A stretch of DNA of 49,940 nt from NCBI GenBank assembly GCA_005239955.1, contig SBAW01000036.1, forward strand, positions 1 to 49,940, read 5' to 3'. Made by a program: the position numbers and the translations under genes. The notes below the pieces were generated by a model. The model was not told where the DNA came from. It saw nothing but the letters and a program-made list of their open reading frames with translations, and ran no database searches. This DNA is from a bacterium (GTDB taxonomy: Bacteria > Patescibacteriota > Minisyncoccia > Phycocordibacterales > SBAW01). Position 1 is the stretch's first letter; each line of letters begins with the position of its first letter. Shown piece after piece: positions 47,085-49,781 of this stretch.

Positions 47085-47390
47085 TCTTTCTTTTGTTTCG
47101 TTCATCACCAGTGTCGGTATGTCTGGCGAACCGAGCGCATTTTAAAGATATCGCGCCACTATCTCTCTCGATTGCTCGAGCGATCGACTGTCAGTCATCC
47201 TGATGCCTTGCGGCAGAAGGACAACGTTTTCACCTTGAATGAATCCACGAACAGCTTCCGCTACCCGTGCCTTGTTACGACTTACTCCCTGTCACTGAGC
47301 TTACCGTGGGCCTGCGCGAGGCAGGACTTCGGGCACTCCCAGCTCCCTTGAGTTGACGGGCGAGTATCTTCGCAAATCTACGAATTAATG

Positions 47391-47430
47391 TTCCCACCGT
47401 ACGTGCGGCTTTCCCGCATACGGCGAGTTC
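47391..47430 (-). ncRNA. Group II intron domain V
   Basis: Lower helix CUCGCCGU/ACGGUGGG with CGC triad and G-U wobble, 2-nt bulge, upper helix GCGG-GAAAG-CCGC. Confidence 0.82.
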
Positions 47431-47878
47431 AGTGCATCCGCTGCTTCAACAAAAGCAGCCGCTGAACGCCGGCATCCGTCCGATGAATTTCTTTATTCAG
47501 AAGTTTCATCATCGTGCAAAATACCGTAAAGTCATGTCGCTTCGATGCAAATCGAAGCGTATGCTTCGTGAAAAACGGAATAATAATATCCGTTAAATCA
47601 CTCCACCGATATACCTCGAACCGGTAGCAATTTTGGTGATTGGGCCGTGTGTCTTTCTGAAAATACACACTGCCACAGCCAAAATAATCTCGGAGTTTAA
47701 AGAGAATCTTTTTGTCTCGCTCGATGAGTTTGATGTAGAACTTTGGTTCTACAACTACTCGTCGAGCTGCCGTTTTTACGTTCGAGGGATCTCGAACATA
47801 TACGGTAAAGCTCCCTTCTCCGTCTACTAGTCCGACAATATAGTCGGGCGTTAGCGATTCACTGAATGAGCCCTTCAT
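47429..47878 (-). CDS. LAGLIDADG homing endonuclease encoded in the intron
   Basis: YIVGLVDGEGSFTVYV motif; stop codon abuts domain V. Confidence 0.88.
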   Translation of the reverse strand: MKGSFSESLTPDYIVGLVDGEGSFTVYVRDPSNVKTAARRVVVEPKFYIKLIERDKKILFKLRDYFGCGSVYFQKDTRPNHQNCYRFEVYRWSDLTDIIIPFFTKHTLRFASKRHDFTVFCTMMKLLNKEIHRTDAGVQRLLLLKQRMH

Positions 47879-49024
47879 TGCATTCCTGCAGTTACTATGA
47901 CTCAGCTGACTTCTGACGCTGCGTCAGATTTATTCTACCGTGCATTGGCACGATAACAGCGTCAGATCTCCACAGGTTACGCATTGCTCCTTTCCAAACA
48001 TCCATACCAGATTTGATTCTCGATCTTCCCTACCCTCACCGCCCATCTGGCAGGTCGATCAATCTGTTGCTTTGTATGGCTATTTTTTGCATCCGGACCC
48101 TCCGCCACCATCCTCACGGAATAGTGACTGTCCTTCTGCTACGCTCCCAGAGACGATCCGGGAGGCGCGGATTTTAACCGCGTGGCGCAATGCGCTGCTG
48201 TGCGCGTTTATTGTGAGTACAAGACTTGAGAACGTATTCACCGCGGTATAGCTGACCCGCGATTACTAGCGATTCCGACTTCATGAGGTCGAGTTGCAGA
48301 CCTCAATCCGAATTGGGCCAACCTTTCTAAGGATTTGCTCCGTCTTACGACATTGCGTCCCGTTGTAGTTGGCATTGTATCATGCGTGCAGCCCAGGGTA
48401 TCAGAGGGACATGCTGACCTGGCGTCATCCCCACCTTCCTCTCCCGTGAGGGAGCAGTCTCGCCTGACATGTAAAACAGGCAACGGGGGTTGCGTTCGTT
48501 ACCCCACTGAAGGGAACAGTTCAAACCACGAACTGACGACGGCCATGCATCACCTGTGATGCCGCCTTGCGGGGGCTCTCCTTTCAAAGAGCTTTCGTCA
48601 TCATTTCTAACCCTGGTAAGGTTCTTCGTTTACCATCGAATTAAGCCGCATGATCCACCGCTTGTGCAAGTCCCCGTCTATTCCTTTGAGTTTTAATCTT
48701 GCGATCGTACTACCCAGGCGGTTCTCTTAACGCGTTAGCTTCGCCTCTCAGAGGGTCGATACTCCGAAAAGCCAGAGAACATCGTTTAGGGCGTGGACTA
48801 CTGGGGTATCTAATCCCATTCGCTACCCACGCTTTCGTATCTCAGCGTCAGGAAATGTGCCAGTGTGCTGCCTTCGCATTTGGTGTTCCCCAAGATATCA
48901 ACGGATTTCACCCCTACACCTTGAGTTCCGCACACCTCTCACATCCTCGAGTTGTGCCGTTTCTCCCGCGCTTCCGCTGTTGAGCAGCGGGCTTTTACGA
49001 GAGACTAACACAACCGCCTACATA

Positions 49025-49057
<33 letters not shown>

Positions 49058-49781
49058 GGGCCTCTGTATTACCGCTCCTGCTGGCACAGAGTTAGGAGCC
49101 CCTTATTCTTGGAGTAACGTCAATAATTTCCTCCTCCATAAAAGATGTTTACGTCCCGAAGGACTTCGTCCATCACGCGGCGTCGCTCCGTCAGGCTTTC
49201 GCCCATTGCGGAATATTCTTGGCTGCAGCCATCCGTAGATGTATGGGCCGTGTCTCAGTCCCATCGGTGGGGGTCAAGCTCTCACTCCCCCTAGCCGTCA
49301 TAGCCTTGGTAAGCCATTACCTTACCAACTAGCTGATAGCCCGCAGGCTCTTCCCTCAGCGGATTGCTCCTTTACTCTCTCGAGACTATCGGGGATTACC
49401 TCGCCTTTCGGCGAGCTATACCCGACTGTGGGGTAGATTCCTACGTATTAATACCTCGTCTGCCGCTCCCTTGCGGGCGCTCGACTTGCATGCCTTATCC
49501 ACGCCGCCAGCGTTCACCCTGAGCTAGGATCAAACTCTATTTTATGAAGCTCCACGCTTGCGCGCTTCGCCTCGATGAACGAAACAAGAGAAAAACGCTG
49601 TTGTGTCTTTCTGTTTGTTTCAATTGGAATTTCCTAGACTCTAGTCGGAAGTAATCTGGTGATACTTCCTTTTTTGGTTTCTTGTCTTCCGAGCCGCCGT
49701 AGCTCCTACAGTCACGGTGGTCGGATTTGCTGTGAATCTATTCAGTTGTCAACGAACCCCTCCCGCTCTCCGGACTTGAAC

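Follow-up and report, generated by a model that had tools for sequence, protein, structure and literature searches.

How does a 16S rRNA gene work when 850 nt separate the two halves of its decoding centre, and how did such an insert reach that place? This question is raised by a locus near one end of the window, which is the whole stretch of 49,940 nucleotides that was analysed; all window features given here lie on its minus strand. The insert (47363..48212) begins with 5' AATAAACGCGCA at 48212, ends with 3' GCGAAGATACT at 47363, and splits the gene between C1399 and C1400. We read it as a mobile IIC-like group II intron that would remove itself from pre-16S rRNA and would be moved at the DNA level by a LAGLIDADG protein, and we put the probability of this reading, judged from sequence comparison, at about 0.88. 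Intron boundaries were set by exon homology. The 5' exon (48213..49550; RF00177, 1266.8 bits) ends with TTGTACTCAC (C1399), and the 3' exon (47228..47362, its end approximate) starts with CGCCCGTCAA (C1400). When joined, the exons align without gaps to E. coli rrsH 16S across A1398-C1399-C1400-G1401, and also across the junction to the intron-less relative L062, which makes exact the split that a preliminary description had placed at about C1399/C1400. The genome (716 kb, 91.6% complete) has a single 16S match, so the interrupted gene must work. The uninterrupted sequence TTGYACTCACCGCCCGTCA is present in 76 of 147 genomes of the same order, all intron-less, so the empty site is common there. 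An assembly artefact or a foreign contig might be suspected in a 56-contig assembly; this is hardly credible because a search of CPR 16S genes for the same site, a check proposed at the outset, shows about 30 independent assemblies, of several origins, to have homologues at this bond, and these are divergent and tree-like.

General RNA models point to a group II intron, with modest scores. The match of Rfam group-II-D1D4-1 (RF01998) at 47940-47870 scores 35.5 bits, where the gathering score is 35. The domain V model Intron_gpII (RF00029) matches at 47425-47395 with 28.3 bits (E=0.0023 in a short search), below its gathering score of 40. The Rfam check that had been proposed gave a match at the gathering score for D1-D4 and a weaker one for domain V. 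Because these matches are marginal, relatives were gathered in two rounds, first by protein and later through R1, a covariance model that spans domains V and VI plus the 3' exon. Matches to R1 occur in 37 of the 197 genomes searched in the order and in 35 of 381 in the phylum, a few of the latter comprising domain V only. The compared set consists of 69 distinct sequences between two 16S exons; the relatives are Parcubacteria-group MAGs, and the genomes compared are uncultured assemblies throughout.

Covariation in these relatives supports the group II fold. Domain V (47393..47427) has standard pairs in 98.7% of pair cells over 27 relatives, with double compensatory change in 64 cells compared to 19.5 in shuffles, and sliding the partner strand by 1-3 columns destroys the pairing. 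The CGC triad, G-U wobble and 2-nt bulge described earlier for domain V are all present. In 25 of the 27 relatives the triad's wobble pair is GU; L052, L053 and L057 have CGU as the triad, with a compensatory change. The cap is a pentaloop, GAAAG in the window and GAAAU in most relatives. RNAalifold gives a DI-DIII fold of 80 pairs for 19 main-clade introns, with double compensatory change in 61 of them. This fold places domain I at 47971..48202 and domain II, UCUGACGCUG ... CAGCGUCAGA, at 47912..47966. Domain III (47870..47910), which lies within the RF01998 match, carries a CAUAGUA motif and runs into the start of domain IV. The CGC triad of domain V marks group IIC. Among recognition elements in the intron RNA, EBS1 alone was noticed, with no EBS2, and by just these two characters the RNA looks IIC-like. 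LAGLIDADG ORFs are typical of group I and archaeal-type introns, which could suggest an intron of group I or of the archaeal bulge-helix-bulge type. We regard this as extremely improbable, since Rfam gives zero group I matches up to E=5, the D1-D4 and domain V models do match, and the EBS1/IBS1 test given below fits group II only; the better group I fit that was once named as grounds for abandoning the group II assignment is therefore missing from Rfam at that threshold. Some relatives (L054, L056, L058, L118 and L119) have extra hairpin sequence of tens of nucleotides between domains V and VI, which is an unusual insertion place. Tandem domain V matches about 32 nt apart (G037 C1:7461-7583 and G543 C11:923-1044) possibly represent the same kind of insertion.

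Domain IV is filled by an ORF of 149 amino acids (47429..47878) for a single-domain LAGLIDADG_1 homing endonuclease (LHE; PF00961, E=3.2e-17). LAGLIDADG group II introns are a minority class that occurs mainly in rRNA genes of fungal mitochondria and some giant sulfur bacteria. The ORF starts at the end of the domain III match, and its stop codon ends 1 nt before domain V, where the preliminary description had the two touching. The broader claims of that description, that the ORF encodes a LAGLIDADG protein instead of a reverse transcriptase and that a group II intron with such an ORF occupies a CPR 16S gene, agree with the PF00961 match, the Rfam results and the covariation; the 850-nt insert has no reverse transcriptase. 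The reading frame is intact, as is the LAGLIDADG motif GLVDGEGSF with its acidic residue, and the best PDB sequence matches are halves of I-PanMI, I-SmaMI and I-OnuI. In pairwise ORF comparisons dS is saturated or nearly so and dN is 0.22-0.38; dN well below dS indicates purifying selection on the ORF. Short introns of 384-420 nt with little or no ORF (L083, L085, L101 and L110) retain both domain V and EBS1, so their RNA fold persists independently of the protein. A second LAGLIDADG_1-like ORF of the same genome lies inside the 23S rRNA gene (L009, G000:C54:10770-11153).

This RNA is linked to its insertion point by the complementarity of EBS1 to the 5' exon. A domain ID hairpin (48025..48057), whose stem is kept in relatives with compensatory changes (alignment A2, columns 186-218), presents the EBS1 5'-GUGAG-3' (48035..48039), which is complementary to IBS1, CUCAC (48213..48217; 16S 1395-1399), the final five nucleotides of the 5' exon. 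The EBS1 5-mer ends 6 nt ahead of a GAA in the hairpin. Relatives are inserted after 1395, 1396, 1397, 1398 or 1399, and in each case EBS1 matches the five nucleotides that precede the site: GUGAG after 1399 (exon CUCAC), UGAGU or UGUGU after 1398 (ACUCA, ACACA), GAGUA after 1397 (UACUC), UGUAC after 1396 (GUACA) and, in a single case read by eye (L031), GUACA after 1395. A register test was made on 43 introns with an unambiguous site, in which the hairpin was found by its stem and flanking CGA/TGA alone, blind to the exon. At the true site 39 of the 43 showed full complementarity, under an anchor spacing taken from the very data tested, and none of the 43 did so at any shift of 1-3 nt. In 2000 permutations the mean was 18.9 and the maximum 27, and all four misses are cases in which the wrong hairpin was picked. 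A first EBS1 candidate, CCGUGAGG (within 48130-48104), was rejected as a GNRA-type hairpin loop, conserved as GCGA/GUGA on a covarying stem.

The exon side of this pairing includes an unusual host nucleotide. Position 1396 in the decoding centre is, as far as we know, a near-universal A, and in the window (48216) it is U. U1396 occurs throughout the order, including the 76 intron-less genomes, and also in part of the phylum. By this distribution U1396 is the ancestral state of the order and does not stem from the intron, and co-conversion of U1396 with the intron, which was considered, is ruled out by the intron-less relatives that carry it. The intron thus followed its host and did not introduce the change. 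The EBS1 base opposite 1396 is U in 9/9 hosts with A1396 and A or G in 40/40 hosts with U1396; this covariation represents about three changes on the tree, too few for significance by independent contrasts. A separate peculiarity of these 16S genes is that the anti-Shine-Dalgarno CCUCC is absent from the 3' end in the window (47235-47280, ..GUGGAUUCAUUCAAGG). It is also missing in most relatives of the order (L003-L005, L016, L039-L050, L054-L057 and the intron-less L062), and ACCUCCUUU is kept at the 3' end in L011, L015, L022, L030, L031, L033, L052, L053 and L058. A brief literature search gave no match for loss of the anti-Shine-Dalgarno in 16S here.

The intron termini are less orthodox. 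In the main-clade alignment a 5' terminal linker, AAUAAAC (48206..48212), of which AAUAAA is invariant among main-clade introns, precedes GCGCA (48205-48201), the equivalent of GUGYG and present in its place, and the 3' end is ACU, giving CU and not AY. Such deviations from GUGYG and AY could suggest a decayed insertion that stays unspliced, with a ribosome that uses inserted or fragmented 16S as in RNase III-cut intervening sequences. We consider this very unlikely for an insert placed in the decoding centre of the only 16S gene found in the genome, with a covarying core and an EBS1 that tracks the site in all groups. Altered splice sites and branch-point loss are documented in accepted LHE group II introns (PMC13190283), so neither standard ends nor a branch point is required of all members.

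The branch point of the window intron also appears to have changed. Domain VI (47363..47392) has no unpaired A at -8 or -7 in the predicted fold and by a structural criterion; unpaired probabilities are 0.03 at -8, which is an A, and 0.23 at -7. The 1398 introns carry an unpaired A at -8 that separates a 4-bp basal helix from an inner one, 3 nt from the exon. By the structural criterion a bulge of this kind with an A is found in 16 of 19 introns at 1398 but in 1 of 31 at 1399. Folds of domain VI were made on short stretches, and those of several main-clade members are ambiguous. The structural criterion was added because the naive domain VI fold was too noisy as a lone branch-point test, with nine changes on the tree. 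These results indicate that most of the 1399 clade, including the window, has lost the bulged branch-point A that is kept at 1398, in which case the first splicing step would probably be hydrolytic. A rather unlikely alternative is that the same intron still branches to form a lariat, with another domain VI adenosine or one in an internal loop at -6. Lariats are formed by rns-952, an LHE group II intron of fungi, and in some 1399 members a small internal loop of domain VI could hold an A; against this are the lack of any unpaired A on the domain VI 3' strand in the predicted window fold and the contrast between the two sites.

The preferred reading, a self-removing mobile intron with a probably hydrolytic first step, gives the following sequence of events. 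Domain I would hold the 5' exon by pairing EBS1 (GUGAG) with IBS1 (CUCAC, 1395-1399), and domain V would catalyse both splicing steps. With no bulged A in domain VI, the first step would probably be hydrolysis and the intron would be released in linear form. The spliced product should have the joined-exon sequence GUACUCACCGCCCGUC, which is expected in cDNA. The 149-aa enzyme, presumed by analogy to act as a homodimer, would cut intron-less 16S near 1396-1400, and repair of the cut gene from an intron copy would install the intron.

Trees of the RNA and of the LHE suggest how the site may have moved. The RNA tree unites the 30 introns at 1399 in one clade (support 99/98; 93/93 with EBS1 masked) nested inside a paraphyletic 1398 group. 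L012 and L106, inserted at 1399 with a bulged A that is still present as read by eye, fall outside the group of the remaining 28 (97/83), and their LHEs do not group with the main 1399 clade in the LHE tree. L030 is a 1398 intron whose LHE groups with 1396-type LHEs, likely through a swap of the endonuclease module. These disagreements between RNA and LHE trees (L012, L106 and L030) indicate LHE exchange or parallel site shifts. The window intron neighbours L003, from the same family, in both trees. A spare C is present at the junction of L068, L070, L078, L108 and L109, which look like intermediate states of a site shift, and L078 lies close to the main 1399 clade in both trees. CPR introns at the 1396 bond are L022, L074, L081, L083, L085 and L086. 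A second group II subfamily inserted after 1397 (L033, L087-L089, L091, L111, L113-L116 and L120) has a distinct 5' end, mostly GGGUCGCC.., and EBS1 GAGUA where identified; its LHEs form one clade (100/94). We lean slightly towards a history in which related LHE group II introns at five consecutive bonds (1395-1399), with a sliding EBS1, record single-nucleotide retargeting while one LHE target was kept, and in which branching was lost in the 1399 lineage, the last to move.

Introns of this kind have been reported from CPR bacteria. Tsurumaki et al. 2024 described 53 group II-like introns at position 1400 (16IS9) of CPR 16S; LAGLIDADG ORFs occur in 39 of these and a reverse transcriptase in none (PMC11270868). 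The window intron has in common with these its CPR host, site, group II-like RNA, single-domain LAGLIDADG_1 protein and lack of a reverse transcriptase. The kind of intron was therefore already known, and the window adds a case; the preliminary description expected a copy in a CPR decoding site to be notable, but such introns are no rarity in CPR bacteria, as the published examples and the R1 matches show. 16IS9 is treated as one site in that work, whereas five consecutive bonds are told apart here, with the window in the 1399/1400 clade, and no analysis of fold, EBS1 or branch point was found for 16IS9 in its main text. In the main texts searched we met no account of an EBS1 register series, of the order in which site shift and branch loss took place, or of CPR introns at the 1396 bond.

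Other known systems share parts of this design. The survey of 753 LHE group II introns by Liu et al. 2026 lists one bacterial family, rns-1396 of Thiotrichaceae (Salman et al. 2012, as cited), which is of IIC type, has a 5' linker and encodes a single-motif LHE within domain IV; the survey mentions neither CPR bacteria nor Patescibacteria nor the 2024 authors (PMC13190283). The window intron resembles rns-1396 in its place in the 16S decoding region, its single-motif LHE in domain IV and its 5' terminal linker, and a CGC triad, with no EBS2 recognised, is in keeping with the IIC backbone described for rns-1396. The two differ in site and host, as rns-1396 is inserted after 1396 in Gammaproteobacteria and the window intron at 1399/1400 in CPR. 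With LHE group II introns of fungal and green-algal mitochondria (IIB1, IIB2, IIA1) the window intron shares the replacement of the reverse transcriptase by an LHE. Many fungal and algal IIB1 families also combine a 5' linker with branch-point loss, and the linker and branch-point change of the window resemble those of fungal LHE introns that splice upstream of GUGYG. These organellar introns differ in having other backbones, other sites and mostly double-motif LHEs, some of which lie in DIII or DIB. The preliminary description named fungal mitochondria and some giant sulfur bacteria as hosts of the class; by its CGC triad and with no EBS2 noticed, the window RNA looks IIC-like, as in the Thiotrichaceae family, and not like the IIB1 introns of fungal mitochondria. 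I-PanMI, I-SmaMI and I-OnuI (PF00961) are LAGLIDADG_1 proteins like that of the window, but they are two-domain monomers compared to its one domain of 149 aa. The comparative set makes it testable how a group II intron retargets one nucleotide at a time, and also whether branch-point loss is tolerated because the LHE, and not lariat reverse splicing, moves the intron. CPR bacteria extend the 2026 survey of LHE group II introns (PMC13190283), in which Thiotrichaceae are the only bacterial hosts.
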